A stretch of DNA of 64,000 bases from contig NZ_CP134696.1 in assembly GCF_031851795.1 (NCBI RefSeq), forward strand, positions 6,448,001-6,512,000, read 5' to 3'. Of this stretch, positions 3,742-37,080 are shown one piece after another. Numbering within the stretch: the stretch's first letter is position 1; every line of letters starts with the position of its first letter. Source of the stretch: Pontibacter sp. G13 (GTDB taxonomy: Bacteria; Bacteroidota; Bacteroidia; J057). Position numbers and translations under genes: made by a program. A model generated the notes under the pieces. That model had not been told where the DNA came from and ran no database searches. It saw only the letters and a list, made by a program, of their open reading frames with translations.

Positions 3742-5004
3742 TTATTTTTTGACGACCCACTCGCGGGCTACACGGCCCATGCGGTCTTGCACTTCCAGTA
3801 GGTACATCCCTGCTGCGAATGGAGTCACATCAATGCTGGCATTACCCGCAGAGATGTTCGCATGATGGATGGCTTGGCCTTGTAGGGTGCGCAGCGTAAG
3901 CTCGAAGCTCGGGGAAGTCCACTGCTCGTCTCGGATGCGGATAGCCAATTGCTCGCCTACAGGATTGCCCAGCACGTGTACGGACCAAGGGAGTTTGGGC
4001 TGATCGTTGCTGCTGATGATGGCGGTGCGTTCGATATCCATGACGACCGGCAGGTGGTCGGAAACTTTGACTAGGGCATCGCAGACACCGGGTCCCACGC
4101 TGGTGTTGTTGGTGCAGCTCAGCGTGGTGTTGTAGGTGTTGCCATCGTTGCCAAATGCCCAGTAGGTGCCGGGTACATATTTCAATCCGAGGTTGCCATT
4201 GTCGATGGAAGGGCTCATGAGGATGAGGTCGAAACGGTCATCCAGCCCGCCGGTGGAGCCACAGTCGATCGGGTTGGAACGTGTGGACTGCGTGTAGATA
4301 TAGCCATTGGACGCCATGTCATCCCAGCCGATATCTTCAAGACCCAGTGGGTCGATGAAGGAAATGGCTGCGTTGTCGTTTTCTACAAATTCTTCGAAAG
4401 CGTCTTCATTGTGGGAATAGATGTTCATGTCGCCGCAGAGCAGGACATTTTCGCCGACCGCATTTTGTTCGACCCAGTTCATGATCTTGATGGCGTCATT
4501 TCTGCGGCGAGACTCATTGGAGCCGCCGGAGCTAGCCTTGAGGTGCATGACTACGAGGTGCAAGAAGGTGGTGTCACCAGCTTCCAATCCGTCCTTGGCA
4601 TAGAGCGTGTAGACGTTCAGGTCTCGGGGATCGCCGTCGATGGCTTCTACACCCTTGTAGCCGAACTTGTCGGAGCGGTAGAAGATCTGGTTGACGATGT
4701 TGGAGTTGTTGATATTGGTGATCTCCCCGGCCTCCATCGCATTGGTGTAGGTAAAGCAGGAGTCGAGGATCGCTTGGGTCACGGAAGCGGATGGGCTGAT
4801 CTCGTTGACGGTGTAGATATCGGGTTGGGCTTCGGTCAGGACTGTCTTGAGCCATCCCAGACGGTCATCGAGGTCCAAGCCCGCACAGCTCGATCCGAAG
4901 AAGAGGATGTTGTGGTGCATCACCCGGAAAGTGTCTACTTGGGCCATGGCCGTGGTTCCGAACAGGCAGAACATCACGATTGCTAACGTAGATTTAACGT
5001 TCAT
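3742..5004 (-). CDS. Secreted endonuclease/exonuclease/phosphatase-fold protein with T9SS sorting domain
   Basis: A 420-residue protein. The start at 5004 gives a signal peptide (MNVKSTLAIVMFCLFGTTAMA); an upstream in-frame ATG would add 18 residues that spoil it. The EEP fold (DNase I/sphingomyelinase superfamily) is indicated by VMHHNILFFG, a Glu in YTVNEIS, the CGDMN motif (family GDxN) and SDHLPVVMD (family SDHxPV), which supply metal and catalytic residues. The last 80 residues resemble a type A T9SS C-terminal domain: WSVHVLGNPVGEQL, LTLRTLQGQ, ITVTPFAAGMYLLEV-like (actual IDVTPFAAGMYLLEV) and a basic end WVVKK. The product is probably secreted and surface-bound or released. The substrate (nucleic acid, phospholipid or sugar phosphate) is unknown. 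Confidence 0.85.
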   Translation of the reverse strand: MNVKSTLAIVMFCLFGTTAMAQVDTFRVMHHNILFFGSSCAGLDLDDRLGWLKTVLTEAQPDIYTVNEISPSASVTQAILDSCFTYTNAMEAGEITNINNSNIVNQIFYRSDKFGYKGVEAIDGDPRDLNVYTLYAKDGLEAGDTTFLHLVVMHLKASSGGSNESRRRNDAIKIMNWVEQNAVGENVLLCGDMNIYSHNEDAFEEFVENDNAAISFIDPLGLEDIGWDDMASNGYIYTQSTRSNPIDCGSTGGLDDRFDLILMSPSIDNGNLGLKYVPGTYWAFGNDGNTYNTTLSCTNNTSVGPGVCDALVKVSDHLPVVMDIERTAIISSNDQPKLPWSVHVLGNPVGEQLAIRIRDEQWTSPSFELTLRTLQGQAIHHANISAGNASIDVTPFAAGMYLLEVQDRMGRVAREWVVKK

Positions 5005-5212
5005 GAAATGTTTGTGTAAAATTGACTTGTGAAAAGTTGCGAAACGGTAGGTATTCACTTGTTTAGAAGGTGCAATTTCGCAAAAGAGCTGGACAAGCAG
5101 ATGATTTCAGAAGGATATATTCGCTTTTTATCAGATCTTACGATATTTGCGCTAATTCTCATTGTGGTACAATGGGGTTTTGCTTTACTTGGATGGACAA
5201 TTCGATCGAGCT

Positions 5213-5830
5213 ATGTATGGTTTACCGCATCTTTCCCGGCTCTGGATCTGGAGTGCTCTGCTAATCATCCTGTTACCAGTCACACTATTCGCCCAAAATC
5301 CGTCCCCCTATGACCGAATGTTTCCCCCCTCGGAATCTATCATTCGCGTAAAACAAGGGGACAAGTTTGGATTTATCCACCCGGATGGAACAGTTCTCGT
5401 TCCGCCTATTTATGATCAGGCCGCCGACTTCAAGGAAGATCGTGCCGCCGTTTCCCTCGACAACAAGCAAGGGTTTATCGACACCGATGGCGAGATGATC
5501 ATCCCGCTCATGTACGACCGGGTCTGGTCCTTCTCATTCGGTGCTGCGTTGGTTCAGCTCAACGACAAACTCGGCGTTATCAACCTCATGGGGGAGACCG
5601 TCATCCCACTGGAATTCGACAACGGCACCTCGGCCTACGACGGTGTGATCCTGCTCTCCAATGCAGGCAAGCACCAGTACTACCACGTCACCGGGGAGTT
5701 GGTCTCCGATCGTGTATTCCTCGAAGGCTGGCCGTTTTACAATGGCATCGCCATGGTCCGCACGCATGAGGGCTATTGGTATATGGACAAGCATGGCCAT
5801 TGTGTGGACCTATGCGAAGTCCTTGAATAG
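5213..5830 (+). CDS. Secreted WG-repeat protein
   Basis: A 205-residue protein with about five WG/KWG-type repeats of roughly 40 residues. The clearest are DKFGFIHPDGTVLVPPIYD, KQGFIDTDGEMIIPLMYD and DKLGVINLMGETVIPLEFD; two further degenerate units follow. ATG at 5213 gives a signal peptide ending ILLPVTLFAQ; an ATG at 5162 would add 17 residues ahead of it. WG repeats form beta-propeller-like structures and are common in Bacteroidota surface or periplasmic proteins, but no enzymatic role is established. It is transcribed divergently from the EEP-fold gene and followed by a strong terminator. Confidence 0.75.
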   Translation: MYGLPHLSRLWIWSALLIILLPVTLFAQNPSPYDRMFPPSESIIRVKQGDKFGFIHPDGTVLVPPIYDQAADFKEDRAAVSLDNKQGFIDTDGEMIIPLMYDRVWSFSFGAALVQLNDKLGVINLMGETVIPLEFDNGTSAYDGVILLSNAGKHQYYHVTGELVSDRVFLEGWPFYNGIAMVRTHEGYWYMDKHGHCVDLCEVLE

Positions 5831-5871
5831 GGAGAAGCGATTGAAGATTTTCCTTTCACAATCCAATGACT

Positions 5872-5904
5872 GGGGCTAGCCTGTTTGGGGTAGCCCCTTT
5901 TTTT
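5872..5904 (+). terminator. Rho-independent terminator after WG-repeat gene
   Basis: Stem GGGGCTA / TAGCCCC with a 12-base loop, followed by seven T residues. This is a textbook intrinsic terminator 40 bases after the stop codon. Confidence 0.85.
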
Positions 5905-5978
5905 GATGCCTTAATTGGCGGGACTACCGGAGATTTTCGGAACTCGGGATGAGGGTTCTGTCAAGGGATAGATAGGGA

Positions 5979-6207
5979 TTTGGGCGTGCCTCGGCGTGCT
6001 TGGCATTCAGGTCCTGCTGGATCAGGTTGGCGCCGAGTCGGGCTGATCCATGGGTTCGCGGGGCTCCGTCCTCGGAAATTTGAAGAGATGAGGCAGTCGG
6101 TCCCGCAAGAGCAATCGATAGGTCGGGGCAACATGGCCGCTGGCCTCGGACCGCTCGTGAACTCGCGCCATTCCCATCCCTCACGCACCCTGCATGGCCA
6201 TCCGCAC
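5979..6207 (-). repeat. Dispersed intergenic repeat, copy 2 (reverse)
   Basis: Read on the plus strand it runs from TTGGGCGTGCCTCGGCGTGC through CGCCGAGTCGGGCTGATCCA and GCTCCGTCCTCGG, then GGCCTCGGACCGCTCGTGAA and CATTCCCATCCCTCACGC, to GGCCATCCGCAC. It is therefore the reverse complement of the family orientation used for copy 1. It occupies most of the space between two genes. Confidence 0.8.
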
Positions 6208-27885: not shown

Positions 27886-29142
27886 TTATGACAAGCCCGC
27901 GGGGGTCTTCCGCAATTCCTCTGGGAAACAGATATAGTATTTGGTGACTGGAGAGGCCAGTGCATGAATGTTGTCCATGTCCGAGGCCTCCGCAAGATCG
28001 AGGACTTCTCCGGACTTATGCCACACGAGAATCGGCTCGTGATTGCCTTCGATGTAGGCTTGGTTGGAGACTTTGCCCCCAAACACGTAGTATTTGACTT
28101 CTTCCTCGGTACAGCCAGAATGCTTCATCCAAGCTTTGCGCAGCTCGGCAAGTTCGCCTTCGTCTATCGGATTCGAACGCATGTTGAGCTTGAGCAGATT
28201 GCGGCTTAGGATGCGTTTGCAAAGATCAGAAAGGACCCGATCCTCGGAAAACTGCCATTTCTTGAGGTGGAAATCGATGTCGTTGTCATCCAGCAGATTG
28301 AATCGATCCAGTACTTCTTGGGTCAAATCTTCGGTGCTGATGGATTGGTGGAAAAAGTATCCCAGGTTTTCATCCAGAAATACAGGTTCGCCCTGCTCTA
28401 CGAGTTCTCGGACGCGCTTGAGACAATTGACCAAGAGGTATTCCGCAGTCATGGCAGCCTTGTGGAGATATACCTGCCAGTACATCAGCCTTCGTGCGAT
28501 GATGAATTTTTCCAGAGAGTAGATCCCTTTGTATTCGCAGACCAACTCGTCTTTATGGACATTGAGGATTTTGATGATTCTGTCAATTCCCACAATGCCT
28601 TCAGCTACCCCTGTGAAAAAGGAATCCCGAATCAGGTAATCCATTCGATCCATGTCCAGCTGGCTAGAGACCAATTGGTGGAGGAATTTCCGAGGATAAT
28701 CCCCTGTGAAGATGTCGATGGCCATATCCAGTTCGCCACCAAATTGACGATTGAGCATTTCCATCAAGGCGAGGCTCATACGTTCATGATGAAGACCGGG
28801 GATGATCACCCGTTCAAGCGCATGGGAATACGGTCCGTGGCCAAGGTCGTGCATCAAGATGGCCGTGAGTGCGGAGAAGTATTCTTCGTCCGAAATCTCG
28901 ACTTCTTTTCTACGGAGGGTATCCAGTGCTTGGCGCATGAGGTGCATAGCGCCGAGGGCGTGGTTGAATCGGGAGTGGACGGCGCCGGGATAGACGAGTG
29001 AGCCCAGGCCCATCTGCTTGATCCGTCGGAGGCGTTGAAAGGGGGGCGTATCGATCAGTGGGAGGATCGCTCCTTTTTGAACCTCAATGAACCCATGCAC
29101 GGGGTCATTGATGATCTTGTTGAGGGTAGTGGTTTTTTCCAA
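27886..29142 (-). CDS. HD-domain phosphohydrolase (dGTPase-like)
   Basis: A 418-residue HD-superfamily enzyme. The metal-binding signature is spread as expected: HSRFNHALGAMHLM (first His), AILMHDLGHGPYSHALE (the HD pair) and SSQLDMDRMDYLIRDSFFTG (Asp). This is the YdhJ-type group related to dNTP triphosphohydrolases and SAMHD1, so dNTP or nucleotide hydrolysis is plausible. The conserved N-terminus KIINDPVHGFIEV begins at a TTG codon at 29142; no in-frame ATG lies near it, so I accept TTG. It is divergent from the VWA membrane protein gene. Confidence 0.88.
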   Translation of the reverse strand: MEKTTTLNKIINDPVHGFIEVQKGAILPLIDTPPFQRLRRIKQMGLGSLVYPGAVHSRFNHALGAMHLMRQALDTLRRKEVEISDEEYFSALTAILMHDLGHGPYSHALERVIIPGLHHERMSLALMEMLNRQFGGELDMAIDIFTGDYPRKFLHQLVSSQLDMDRMDYLIRDSFFTGVAEGIVGIDRIIKILNVHKDELVCEYKGIYSLEKFIIARRLMYWQVYLHKAAMTAEYLLVNCLKRVRELVEQGEPVFLDENLGYFFHQSISTEDLTQEVLDRFNLLDDNDIDFHLKKWQFSEDRVLSDLCKRILSRNLLKLNMRSNPIDEGELAELRKAWMKHSGCTEEEVKYYVFGGKVSNQAYIEGNHEPILVWHKSGEVLDLAEASDMDNIHALASPVTKYYICFPEELRKTPAGLS

Positions 29143-29199: not shown

Positions 29200-30621
29200 A
29201 TGTGGAAGTGTTTGCTCCGAATTCTCTACGGTGGGAAACGGGAAACGAGTCTGTTGATCTATCTGCTACTCCCGTCTCTTTTGTTGGGCCAATCTCATGA
29301 TTGGACCCTGGGAGGCCTTCGGGCAAAACGAGCGGATCTCACTGTCCCTCAGCCTGTGATGGTGCTTTCGGATCAATATCCTCAGCTCACCGCCATCTTG
29401 GAGGGGCAATCCTCCTTCCTGAATCAACTGCCTGCGGATTCCATCTCTCTTCAAGTCAATGAGGCTCCAGCCCGGGTCCTTTCCTTTCGGGAGGGGATGC
29501 CCAAATATCCCTTTTTGGTGGGATTGGTCTTGGATCTCTCGCTAGAGTCCTCCGAATGGCAGGATGTAAGCAATGTCGGAAAAACCGATCCCGAACCCAC
29601 TTCCGACAACCTTCGCTACCAAACCGACGCTGCGATTTCCTTTCTCCAAAGCCTTCAATATCCCAAAGATTCCGCACTGGTCATCGGGGTGTCTGATGGT
29701 ACCGCGCATACGGATCTGAATGATCATGTGCCGGGTATGCAGGCTGTGCTGGAAACTTGGCAGCCGCTTCCGGGCAGGTCGCTATATGACGGCATGCAGC
29801 TAGGATTGGAAAGCCTGATGCCGCATGAAGGACGAAAAGCTGTGGTAGTGGTGACTGCCGGCAAGGATGTAGGCTCTGGGACCCCTGCGCAAGTGGTCGC
29901 GCGATCGGCCCAGCTACAGCGAATTCCCGTGTACGTGATTTGGGTTGGAGATGCGCCGGATGTAGCGATGGAGCGAATCGCCCGAAATTCTGGAGGAGCC
30001 CTGATCACCACAGAATCATTTCGTATGCTGGGCCCCACGATTTTGGGATTGAGCGAATTTTTGCAATCGGTATTCGAGTTGCGGTACGAAGTGAATGAGC
30101 AGATCGAATCTGCCCCGGTAAGGCACAACCTTCACGTTACCTTCCAGAGAGGTGAAAAAGCCCTTGAAATGGATGTGGCCTATCAAATCCCTGAGGATGT
30201 CGTGAGTGCAATTGTCAAGTCGAAACAGACTTCTGAACGGCCTTCCATCTGGGCGATCTTGGGTTCGTTACTGGCGGTAGGATTGGGCGTGGCGTTATTT
30301 TTGTGGCTGAGGAGTCGTGTACCCGGAGGGGCTAGCAGTGGGGTTGTTGTGCCTGCGATTATGGAGGCGAAACTGGATGGCCGTAAGCATTTGCTTCAAG
30401 TGCGGGTGAATATTCCCAATCGTGACTTGGCTGCTCGTTTGACTTTGGAAACCCAGCAAGGGACGCCCGTCAAGGCATTTGTACTGAAGGGCGAGGCGAA
30501 AAAGGCGGACCTCGACATCTCCGATTTGCCTGCGGGGATCTATCATGGGAAACTCCACAATGACGGGCTAGTATCAGAGGTCCGTGAGATCGTATGGAAT
30601 CCCGACCACAAAACCGAATAG
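29200..30621 (+). CDS. VWA-domain inner-membrane protein with a T9SS-CTD-like cytoplasmic tail
   Basis: A 473-residue protein. Residues 1-30 form a signal sequence. Residues 100-300 form a von Willebrand factor A domain with a partial MIDAS (LDLSLES at 111-117, and VVVTAGKDVGSG at about 216-227). A transmembrane helix spans 350-371 (IWAILGSLLAVGLGVALFLW), followed by RSR. The final 80 residues resemble a T9SS C-terminal domain: LTLETQQGTPVKAF, then LDISDLPAGIYHGKL and VREIVWN. By the positive-inside rule that domain should be cytoplasmic, where it could not act as a sorting signal. It lies 165 bases upstream of porX on the same strand and may be cotranscribed. Role unknown. Confidence 0.78.
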   Translation: MWKCLLRILYGGKRETSLLIYLLLPSLLLGQSHDWTLGGLRAKRADLTVPQPVMVLSDQYPQLTAILEGQSSFLNQLPADSISLQVNEAPARVLSFREGMPKYPFLVGLVLDLSLESSEWQDVSNVGKTDPEPTSDNLRYQTDAAISFLQSLQYPKDSALVIGVSDGTAHTDLNDHVPGMQAVLETWQPLPGRSLYDGMQLGLESLMPHEGRKAVVVVTAGKDVGSGTPAQVVARSAQLQRIPVYVIWVGDAPDVAMERIARNSGGALITTESFRMLGPTILGLSEFLQSVFELRYEVNEQIESAPVRHNLHVTFQRGEKALEMDVAYQIPEDVVSAIVKSKQTSERPSIWAILGSLLAVGLGVALFLWLRSRVPGGASSGVVVPAIMEAKLDGRKHLLQVRVNIPNRDLAARLTLETQQGTPVKAFVLKGEAKKADLDISDLPAGIYHGKLHNDGLVSEVREIVWNPDHKTE

Positions 30622-30786
30622 CCCACGGGCCGTATCATCCGAATCTGGTAATTCCTGCAAACCAAAGGGATTCGTCCCTATCTTCCCGTTCTTTTTCAAC
30701 CTTCAGCCAGAATCAGGCGAGGGATGTATTCAAAAAATCAAATACAGGTCTTAGAATCGACCATTCACCAATTACAAAAAGACACA

Positions 30787-32358
30787 ATGGCAAACGCAAA
30801 AATCCTGTGGGTAGATGATGAAGTCGAGTTGCTCAAGGCGCATATCATGTTCCTCAAAGGCAAGGAATTCGATGTGGAATCCGTGAGCAATGGCGTGGAC
30901 GCTTTGGAGATGATTCAGGAGCAAGCCTACGATGTCGTGTTTTTGGATGAACAAATGCCGGGCATGGATGGCCTAACCGTACTTGGAGAGATTCAACGGA
31001 TCAATCCCAATATCCCCGTCATCATGATCACCAAGTCCGAAGAGGAGCAGATCATGGAAGACGCTTTGGGGGCTCAGATCACCGATTACCTCATTAAACC
31101 GGTGAAACCCAGCCAGATTCTACTCGCCTTGAAGAAGGTGTTGGAAAATAAGCGATTGATCACTGAGCGCGTCAACTCTGGATACCAGCAGGACTTTCGG
31201 AATATCGCCATGCAGTTTTTCGAAGCGAATAGCCACGAGGATTGGATGGACATCTACCGCAAGCTCATGTTCTGGGAGGGGAAGATGGAGGAGAATGTCG
31301 ACAAGAGCATGGAGGAGGTCCTCAATCACCAGCTCGCGGAGGCCAATACGAACTTTGGTCGGTTTGTCGCTCGAAATTATCTGGATTGGGTAAACTCCCG
31401 TGATTTGGTGGATCGTCCCCTGCTTTCCCCCGATATTATTCCCCAGACGGTATTTCCCCATTTGGATGGAGGGTATGACAGTGTCTTCTTCATCTTGGTG
31501 GACTGCCTTCGATTTGACCAATGGAAAGCTTTTGAAGCGCTCGTTGCTGAGCATTTCTACGTAGACCGAGAGGATGCCTACTTCTCTATCTTGCCGACTG
31601 CTACCCAATATGCCCGAAATGCCATTTTCTCAGGCATGATGCCGTTGGAAATTTCCCAGCGATACGCCAACTACTGGAAGAATGACGACGAAGAGGGAGG
31701 CAAGAACCTGCATGAGGCGGATCTGTTGGCGCAGCAATTGAAGCGCAATCGCATCAATGCCAAGTATAGCTATCACAAGGTGATTACCCCCGATGATGGC
31801 AAAAACTTGGCGGACAATATTCACAATCTCCTCAACAATGATCTGAATTTCATTGTCTACAACTTCATCGATTTGCTTTCCCACTCTCGGACGGAAATGA
31901 ATATCATCAAGGAGTTGGCGCCCAATGAAGCTGCTTATCGCTCTCTTTCCCGATCTTGGTTGGAGTATTCTCCGCTGATGAAAGCCCTCCAGCAATTGAG
32001 CAAGAAAAACGTCAAGATCATTCTCACCACCGACCATGGTACGATCCGCGTCAAGAAGCCCGTTCGGATCATTGGCGACCGTACCACCACCACCAATCTG
32101 CGCTACAAGCAGGGAAAAAACCTCAATTACGACGAGAAGGCGAAGTATCTGTTTACCATTCGGAAGCCTGAGGATGCCATGCTCCCCAAGACCCGAGTGA
32201 GTAGTACCTATGTCTTCACGATGGAGGATTACTTCTTCGCCTATCCCAATAATTACAATTACTATGTCAATTATTTCCGGGATACCTTCCAACATGGAGG
32301 AATCAGCTTGGAAGAACAGGTCATTCCCATTATTGAATTGTCTCCCAAAAACCGATAG
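30787..32358 (+). CDS. porX: PorX: response regulator with PglZ domain (T9SS regulator)
   Basis: A 523-residue protein. Residues 1-125 are a receiver domain with the acidic pair in LWVDDE, phospho-acceptor Asp54 (VVFLDEQMPGMDG), the switch Thr in IMITKSE and Lys in YLIKPVKP. Residues 200-520 are a PglZ/alkaline phosphatase-superfamily domain, with metal-site segments FFILVDCLRFDQW, PTATQYARNAIFSG and ILTTDHGTIRVKKP. In Porphyromonas and Flavobacterium this exact architecture is PorX, which with the kinase PorY and an ECF sigma factor controls the type IX secretion system, and whose PglZ domain acts on oligonucleotides. T9SS substrates in this window make the assignment firm. The start at 30787 (MANAKILWVDDE) is standard. 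Confidence 0.95.
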   Translation: MANAKILWVDDEVELLKAHIMFLKGKEFDVESVSNGVDALEMIQEQAYDVVFLDEQMPGMDGLTVLGEIQRINPNIPVIMITKSEEEQIMEDALGAQITDYLIKPVKPSQILLALKKVLENKRLITERVNSGYQQDFRNIAMQFFEANSHEDWMDIYRKLMFWEGKMEENVDKSMEEVLNHQLAEANTNFGRFVARNYLDWVNSRDLVDRPLLSPDIIPQTVFPHLDGGYDSVFFILVDCLRFDQWKAFEALVAEHFYVDREDAYFSILPTATQYARNAIFSGMMPLEISQRYANYWKNDDEEGGKNLHEADLLAQQLKRNRINAKYSYHKVITPDDGKNLADNIHNLLNNDLNFIVYNFIDLLSHSRTEMNIIKELAPNEAAYRSLSRSWLEYSPLMKALQQLSKKNVKIILTTDHGTIRVKKPVRIIGDRTTTTNLRYKQGKNLNYDEKAKYLFTIRKPEDAMLPKTRVSSTYVFTMEDYFFAYPNNYNYYVNYFRDTFQHGGISLEEQVIPIIELSPKNR

Positions 32359-35538: not shown

Positions 35539-37080
35539 TTGAAATATCTTCTACTCGTCGCTTGCTTGATTTCCAGCTTTCCCCTGTATGCTCAACAAGA
35601 ATGGTCGTGGCTGTCTCGTCCGGAAGAATGGACGCATTCCTCTCTCTTTGAATGGAGTCAGCGTGTCAATGACCAAATCTTGAATAAGACCGATCCATGG
35701 ACCAATAAGGTGGAGTTTGTGTATAGTACCAAGCTGGATTCAGCCGTGGAACGTCTTGAAGAAACGGGGGAAAAACTCAGGAAATTTTTCTACGGTTATG
35801 ATGCTGACGGGTATCAGGTGGAGGAATTTACCTACCACTGGGATGCGAGTGAAGGAGATTGGATACCCTATGAATGGGCAGTTAATGAACGGAATTTGGA
35901 TGGAAGCATCCGTGAAATGGCCATCTATCGTTGGGGTGGGGAGTGGGTAGGTGTATTTCGGTTTAAGCATTCCTATGGATCTGATGGAGAGTTACTTGAA
36001 TATTTGTCCTATGATTGGAATGTGGTGGATCAAGAATGGACCCCCTATTGGAAGCGAACGTACCAATATCGCCGAAAGGGGACTAGAATTCACATCCTTG
36101 AATATATCTGGGATAATACTCAGACAGATTGGGTCGGTCAATTTCGCTATTATGAAGAATACAACTCGGATGGAGTGCGATTGGATATGATTCAGGAGAT
36201 CTGGAATCCATCGAGCCAATCTTGGGATTACCAGTTGCGGGAACAGGTGTTGGTCGATCCGGATGGATATTGGCAGGATGAGATCAGGTCTCGTTTTGAA
36301 GGGGCTTCAGGTTGGGAACCTTTTTCTAAAGTTAAACTCCGGTTCGATGAGGCCAATCGGCAAGTGGCAGAATTTCATTACGATTGGGTCGTCTCTTCAC
36401 AGCTGTGGCGGCCGCTGACTAGAACACAAAAGGAGTGGGGAATCCATGGGATAGATCTAGAGGTTTCAGAAGTGTGGTCTCAATCTCAAGCGGAATGGCA
36501 AAAAAGTGAGGAAAAGCAATACCGATACGACCCAGATGGAAGATTGAATCGAATTCTGTCGAATGTATTTGATACAAACTCTAGGGAATTACTCATTCAA
36601 TACAGCCAGAATCGAAAGGTGGAGGCGTTGGGGAATCTCCTGAAGAAAAATTTACTCTATCGGAACTCCCACGGGGATCCTTGGGCTGTCAATTTTCAAT
36701 ACGACTATCAGTATAGCTACGAGGAATCCGGAGGGTATGTGTTGGGCATCTCAGCAAGTCCCAATCTCCGAATCTCACATCGATTTCAGACCCATACCGA
36801 TCGAGTACGCTTGGTAGATTACTTCTATTCTGAATTTGAAGGGGCCTATGAAGCCGATTTGGAGCCTTATCCCAATCCCAGTTCGGGACAGGTTTTTTGG
36901 GAGGTTGGTGTTCGGGTTCAAGCGGATGTCTTTCTGTACGATCTGCAAGGACGATTGGTGGGTCAGGCAGAAGTGCTCCGTGGAAAGCCGGTTGACTTTC
37001 AGGAGGTTCCCGGAGGAATTTACATTTGGGTGCTGATTGGAGACGGGATCTTTGATCGAGGGAAGATTCAGATGAATTGA
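35539..37080 (+). CDS. Secreted Trp/Tyr-rich repeat protein with T9SS sorting domain
   Basis: A 513-residue protein that begins at a TTG codon; the immediate signal peptide (MKYLLLVACLISSFPLYAQ) supports it. Residues 50-400 consist of about eight tandem units of 35-45 residues, with a pattern Y-x-Y-D-x-D-G, a run of polar residues, Y-x-W-D and then W-x-P (for example YGYDADGYQVEEFTYHWDAS and YGSDGELLEYLSYDWNVVD). They resemble RHS/YD-type or DUF-type beta repeats but are distinct. The tail (DLEPYPNPSSGQVFWEVG ... VPGGIYIWVLIGDG) is a type A T9SS C-terminal domain, so the product is probably displayed or released at the surface. Function unknown. Confidence 0.82.
   Translation: MKYLLLVACLISSFPLYAQQEWSWLSRPEEWTHSSLFEWSQRVNDQILNKTDPWTNKVEFVYSTKLDSAVERLEETGEKLRKFFYGYDADGYQVEEFTYHWDASEGDWIPYEWAVNERNLDGSIREMAIYRWGGEWVGVFRFKHSYGSDGELLEYLSYDWNVVDQEWTPYWKRTYQYRRKGTRIHILEYIWDNTQTDWVGQFRYYEEYNSDGVRLDMIQEIWNPSSQSWDYQLREQVLVDPDGYWQDEIRSRFEGASGWEPFSKVKLRFDEANRQVAEFHYDWVVSSQLWRPLTRTQKEWGIHGIDLEVSEVWSQSQAEWQKSEEKQYRYDPDGRLNRILSNVFDTNSRELLIQYSQNRKVEALGNLLKKNLLYRNSHGDPWAVNFQYDYQYSYEESGGYVLGISASPNLRISHRFQTHTDRVRLVDYFYSEFEGAYEADLEPYPNPSSGQVFWEVGVRVQADVFLYDLQGRLVGQAEVLRGKPVDFQEVPGGIYIWVLIGDGIFDRGKIQMN

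Follow-up and report, generated by a model that had tools for sequence, protein, structure and literature searches.

The window analysed here is a stretch of 64,000 nt from Pontibacter sp. G13 (NZ_CP134696.1, positions 6,448,001-6,512,000), and all coordinates below are window positions. It harbours an uninterrupted ORF of 473 codons on the forward strand (29200-30621, with an ATG at 29200) that codes for a VWA protein. From its N- to its C-terminus, this protein is composed of a putative signal peptide, a β domain, the VWA domain, a predicted transmembrane helix and a tail resembling the T9SS type A sorting domains (CTDs). The features of the gene and of its two neighbours are collected in Table 1.

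Table 1. The VWA gene, its predicted parts and the flanking genes in the window
Feature	Position	Strand	Basis
HD-domain gene, divergently oriented beside the VWA gene in 3/3 same-family loci (window, G003, G004)	27886..29142	-	Pfam, locus comparison
CDS, 473 aa: signal peptide - β domain - VWA - transmembrane helix - CTD-like tail	29200..30621	+	Homologues with the same layout
Putative signal peptide, residues 1-30: basic n-region, core LIYLLLPSLLL, then G|Q	29200..29289	+	Sequence pattern
VWA domain, MIDAS metal site degenerate in the window protein	29512..30012	+	Pfam, Foldseek, motif check
Transmembrane helix, residues 350-373 including RSR	30247..30318	+	Hydropathy, model helix
CTD-like seven-stranded tail, predicted cytoplasmic	30337..30618	+	Model, fold matches, hhalign
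porX (receiver + PglZ), neighbour	30724..32358	+	Pfam; relatives favour 30787 as the start

The N-terminal part of the protein conforms to an exported VWA protein. An [AGS]Q pair directly follows the hydrophobic core in 26 of the 27 distinct members of the family described below, as judged from the pattern rather than with a dedicated signal-peptide predictor, and a Gln residue at position +1 has been described as a feature of Bacteroidetes signal peptidase (PMC5837995). Residues ~62-330 of the window protein were modelled as a β domain and a VWA domain (mean pLDDT 74.6, pTM 0.50). The Pfam VWA profile (PF00092) scored just under its cut-off (21.5 bits for a cut-off of 23.8, E = 2.9e-4), and the Foldseek matches of this part, i.e. 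inter-alpha-inhibitor heavy chain, integrin I domains, VWF A3 and BatB, identify a VWA fold. The sequence-only reading of this DNA had proposed a VWA membrane protein, and the fold, the signal-peptide-like N-terminus and one strong hydrophobic helix confirm it. We found neither a DxSxS nor a TDG motif in the VWA domain of the window protein. The DxSxS metal motif is kept in 24 of the 27 members, a count that discounts a pattern hit at the wrong place in L014, and is missing from the window protein and two same-family relatives. Thus, the metal site has been lost in the window's family though the reading frames are intact. The gene at locus L015 seems to be devoid of part of the VWA domain, with a reading frame that is nonetheless intact.

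Residues 350-368 are strongly hydrophobic, with a mean Kyte-Doolittle value of 2.39, and are followed by WLRSR. Hydrophobic helices that are followed by basic residues generally stop transfer. With a signal peptide first and then a single stop-transfer helix, the VWA domain is predicted to be outside and the tail inside. The sequence-only reading had drawn the cytoplasmic location of the tail from the RSR flank; the location is supported as a prediction, but in the window protein that flank, taken by itself, is not decisive. Indeed, both 12-residue flanks of the helix have a net charge of +2, with three Lys and Arg residues before it and two after it. Over the 27 members, the net charge of the 12-residue flanks is higher after the helix in 25, with ties in the window protein and in L104 and no reversed case. 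The Lys and Arg count, on which the positive-inside rule is usually based, is greater after the helix in 19 members, equal in three and reversed in five, including the window protein. As the flanks of the window protein are equal in net charge and reversed in Lys and Arg content, the order of signal peptide and helix, together with the family, carries the prediction, and it is on this basis that we infer a cytoplasmic tail. Given the known route of T9SS cargo, Sec and then T9SS, the idea of a sorting-like fold that cannot be sorted also holds as a prediction.

We compared this organization with that of 44 CTD proteins encoded in the same genome, namely the eight best matches and every fourth one thereafter (36), by looking for a stretch of mean hydropathy ≥1.6 within the 100 residues that precede the CTD. 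One protein of the 44, L005, has such a stretch, 74 codons upstream of the CTD. We read it as a probable signal peptide, so that none of the 44 ordinary CTD proteins would carry an internal helix ahead of the CTD. The maximum among the other 43 is 1.47, compared with 2.39 for the window protein. With respect to T9SS cargo features, the window protein has a putative signal peptide, but the predicted helix at residues 350-368 would put its tail out of reach from the periplasm.

The tail of the window protein (~95 C-terminal residues), modelled alone, was predicted to form a seven-stranded β-sandwich (pLDDT 84.5). Its description as a close match to the type A sorting domain proved overstated as to closeness. 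The tail scores 15.1 bits against PF18962, below the cut-off of 27, the NCBIfam profile TIGR04183 gave no match on the window protein, and both the PNP motif and the motif-E Lys pattern were looked for in the tail and are absent from it. The tail also extends beyond the usual CTD end. The likeness itself is sound. Using hhalign, the tails of the window protein and of its G003 and G004 relatives gave 94.2% with the 44 CTD segments of the window's genome, one of which (L004) looks mis-framed, and 97.4% with 12 tails of other-family members, versus 0.2% with reversed CTDs and at most 0.4% with 30 column shuffles. Judging from these profiles, the window tail is homologous to the T9SS type A CTDs, beyond chance.

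Structural comparisons were less discriminating. The best Foldseek match of the tail, and the sole one at E ≤0.001, is a DUF3244 protein (4g5a). The lower rows include 8glk_D, 8gl8_D and the mirolase CTD among many FN3 domains; we take 8glk_D and 8gl8_D, 75-residue chains from T9SS complexes, to be substrate CTDs. VIA-align ranks the C-terminal region of PorU first (Z 9.9, rmsd 3.0 over 93 residues), level with unrelated rows, and the mirolase CTD obtains Z 8.7 and rmsd 2.2 over 73 residues. Both lie within 1-2 Z of the values for FN3 and receptor domains; overall, these domains and Ig domains obtain scores similar to those of CTDs. As CTDs and these other domains match similarly, the fold alone is no proof of a CTD origin: it is CTD-compatible and not CTD-specific, and it is the sequence profile that points to CTDs. 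Modelling the tail against CTD structures, as had been proposed, thus yielded a seven-stranded Ig-like fold with PorU and mirolase among its matches, but without singling out CTDs.

With the T9SS type A CTDs (PF18962/TIGR04183; PorU, mirolase), the tail shares the seven-stranded Ig-like fold, a GxY motif and profile homology, to which members outside the window's family add the PNP motif. Unlike them, it comes immediately after a transmembrane helix, with a predicted location in the cytoplasm. All seven non-window members submitted to TIGR04183 passed its cut-off, while the window protein did not. Six of the 10 members submitted to PF18962 reached the cut-off of that profile, with the other four matching at E values up to 0.0025. 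The first Pro and the Asn of the PNP motif are kept in 18 of 20 aligned members. The window's family has diverged at both ends, its VWA metal site and the PNP motif of its CTD being lost or altered.

Analyses of other genomes revealed that the layout is not restricted to Pontibacter sp. G13. The VWA gene was matched in five of 60 genomes by a protein search (the window's own and four others), and searching 395 genomes of the class with a profile collected 12 full-length members, including that of the window, and one fragment. When named genomes were scanned with the window protein as sole query, no relative was detected. A second scan of named genomes, with a three-member alignment, yielded at least 206 stretches, of which 80 were kept. 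The first 19 of those are close relatives, among others from Paraflavitalea, Niastella, Aureispira, Mangrovimonas and Nonlabens. We compared 27 distinct members, to the exclusion of L102 (contig end), L085/G342 (fragment), and duplicates, namely L082, L083 and L084 (which repeat L110, L103 and L111, respectively) and a set of short loci; among the 80 loci kept, the VWA matches L114 to L174, at 22-30% identity, lie outside the tail comparison. The succession of signal peptide, VWA domain, helix and CTD-like tail is found in 21 of the 27 members and occurs in Chitinophagaceae, Saprospiraceae (Aureispira) and Flavobacteriaceae.

The remaining six members (L100, L101, L106, L107, L109 and L112) are devoid of the tail. 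They end 5-19 residues past the helix, with basic residues there, which indicates that the VWA-helix part can stand alone as a membrane protein. Two of them are Niastella proteins, at positions 4983-6131 (L100) and 4989-6098 (L101) of their loci, which end in KRKANPNQHI and KRKKS, respectively, while the Paraflavitalea relatives carry the CTD. We considered whether the presence of the tail follows that of the T9SS and discarded this explanation, as SprA is encoded in each of the 17 member genomes searched, among them the six without a tail, and as the latter genomes gave 93 to at least 150 CTD matches each. Nor does a recent stop codon account for the missing tails: no CTD remnant was found within 900 nt downstream of any of the six genes, the stretch available for L112 being 328 nt.

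A profile spanning the helix and the CTD was then run on the 395 genomes. Eight matches span the helix, with E values of 1.2e-42 to 2.7e-33, and all are members of the VWA family. The next matches fall to E = 1.6e-18 and align past the helix. Among the matches listed, four weaker ones (G198, G061, G105 and G133) start at or before position 28, G198 having no helix. Since the profile was built from the VWA family, and members from GTDB family f35 scored weakly with it, other helix-CTD proteins may escape detection.

In the four f35 loci (L017, L078, L079 and L080), the VWA gene overlaps a gene for a 784-aa protein or follows it by at most 4 bp. By eye, the C-terminus of that protein resembles the gliding-motility (type B) sorting domain. 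No ORF of the cluster to which this gene belongs adjoins the VWA gene elsewhere among the 28 loci, a matching ORF in L082 being 4.9 kb away.

The reading that we favour, at roughly even confidence, is that of an inner-membrane VWA protein that uses a CTD-fold domain as a cytoplasmic module, its partner and its signalling role being guesses. The signal peptide would bring the two N-terminal domains (β and VWA) into the periplasm, and the helix would stop transfer, generating a single-pass (type I) inner-membrane protein. The C-terminal β-sandwich, a relative of the T9SS type A CTDs, would stay in the cytoplasm, where it could not be a working secretion signal. It would most likely serve as an interaction domain of the ordinary Ig-like kind, by which the exported VWA part is coupled or anchored to a partner in the cytoplasm; in other words, it would bind a partner or steady the protein. 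A bolder version, which we find unlikely, is that in a family of VWA inner-membrane receptors, Bacteroidota have turned the T9SS sorting domain into an intracellular binding domain that relays signals, possibly read by cytoplasmic components close to the T9SS motor (PorL/GldL, PorX) or by some other partner.

The tail might instead be a relic, if one of the abundant CTD cassettes had become fused to the 3′ end of a membrane-protein gene and the resulting domain were tolerated and folded without doing anything specific. We consider this unlikely, although several observations fit it. CTD cassettes are indeed abundant in the window's genome, with at least 150 matches (150 of 294 candidates were scored, and all 150 matched). 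The tail is missing from six of the 27 members, and explaining its distribution takes four changes on the best VWA tree, which comprises 26 members, and three to four in bootstraps, with well-supported branches forcing one; in this tree, the window protein is tentatively placed where long branches meet. Furthermore, the tails do not separate from ordinary CTDs: against a profile made from six Chitinophagales-type tails, those of other members score no higher than ordinary CTDs, in a comparison biased by the selection of 20 of the 64 controls as the best matches to a family profile. Both a single ancient fusion and repeated fusions are compatible with these data. Against a relic, the junction is the same in several families, and the sequence of the tail is kept. 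In five ortholog pairs, all from outside the window's family, dN/dS values for the tail were 0.16, 0.23, 0.23, 0.32 and 0.22, compared with 0.10, 0.13, 0.07, 0.09 and 0.11 for the ectodomain, as calculated by the simple Nei-Gojobori method with some dS values >1. These ratios indicate purifying selection on the tail in all five pairs, weaker than that on the exported part, the latter point being compatible with a relic.

Another possibility, which we deem quite unlikely, is that these proteins are true T9SS cargo, in which the helix crosses the membrane or inserts at another place, so that the tail arrives in the periplasm or beyond it and the VWA domain is displayed on the surface. The combination of a signal peptide with an NCBIfam-positive CTD in the seven non-window members, the SprA genes in all member genomes searched and the mixed Lys and Arg counts around the helix (greater on the C-terminal side in 19 of 27) are consistent with it. 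Nevertheless, a helix of this type, with its basic C-terminal flank, usually stops transfer, and the six tail-less members have kept one. The Lys pattern before the last strand (motif E), which has been tied to efficient secretion (PMC10202324), is absent from the window tail and weakly depleted in the family, where it occurs in five of 21 tails compared with 31 of 63 ordinary CTDs (p = 0.047); the depletion is not clear when the own-genome controls are taken alone (20 of 43, p = 0.11).

The genetic environment of the VWA gene brings in porX, the next gene on the same strand in the window, as the sequence-only reading had pointed out. The two genes are separated by 102 or 165 bp depending on the porX start. 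This adjacency, whose recurrence in relatives had been proposed as a check, is not conserved: porX adjoins the VWA gene in two of the 28 member loci (the window and G004), both from one GTDB family, some flanks being cut by contig ends. Within that family, the HD-VWA pair is kept in G003, with porX on another contig, and the HD gene lies beside porX in G002 and G010 with no VWA gene in between. Eleven of the 12 same-family genomes harbour porX (partial in G009, none in G007) and two the VWA gene; among the 60 relatives, porX was found in 55 at E 1e-60, and the VWA gene in five. The adjacency thus looks like inherited local gene order. A porX operon or a conserved porX-VWA pair was discarded on the basis of these locus comparisons. 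A scan of two gaps for Bacteroidetes-type promoters detected no strict match, and a comparison of neighbours over the 28 loci identified none conserved across families that points to a partner.

PorX binds the cytoplasmic domain of PorL/GldL, according to PMC10951265, and a cytoplasmic CTD-like domain could thus in principle meet PorX. Nevertheless, the suggestion that the CTD-like tail, held back in the cytoplasm, acts as a sensor or mimic of T9SS load and informs the PorX protein encoded next door is unsupported and very improbable, for all the same-strand adjacency in the window and G004, in view of the gap between the genes, the single family concerned, the disparate distributions of porX and the VWA gene, and the six members that have no tail in genomes with SprA and numerous CTDs.

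The individual parts of the cytoplasmic-module protein that we favour are already known, and the apparently new element is the order of helix then CTD, of which we found no report in titles and abstract openings of the open-licence PMC literature. Membrane-tethered VWA domains are common to this family and to BatA/BatB, and a BatB structure is among the fold matches of the VWA part. Unlike the present proteins, BatA/BatB are not known to carry a CTD-like tail, and their helix arrangement is probably different. The TIGR03436 signature (acidobact_VWFA) is exceeded by two of the eight proteins submitted to it (L097 and L104), with the window protein below the cut-off; the match is limited to the VWA part and leaves out the helix and the tail. 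Mfa5 of P. gingivalis is a VWA protein listed as T9SS cargo, at 1288/1226 aa (PMC7712824, PMC5445135). As judged from those listings, it combines a VWA domain and a CTD as here and is secreted. Other helix-tethered VWA proteins, some of them in Bacteroidetes, have been tied to TolQ-like motors (PMC12204202); as described there, their helix precedes the VWA domain, whereas it follows it in the present family.

CTDs are taken to mark secreted proteins, and TIGR04183 matches are labelled ‘T9SS type A sorting domain-containing protein’. For the present family, with the domain behind a membrane helix, this label is probably wrong. If the predicted topology is true, cargo counts based on CTD models would have to be filtered for such helices, and a second, intracellular job could be assigned to the fold. 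The tail-less Niastella relatives provide a natural comparison. With its CTD matches numbering at least 150, the window's genome has a large apparent set of T9SS cargo, and an Aureispira genome likewise has at least 150. The window itself also harbours a gene coding for a 513-aa protein (35539-37080, forward strand) with a weak C-terminal sorting-domain match of 20.1 bits for a cut-off of 27.
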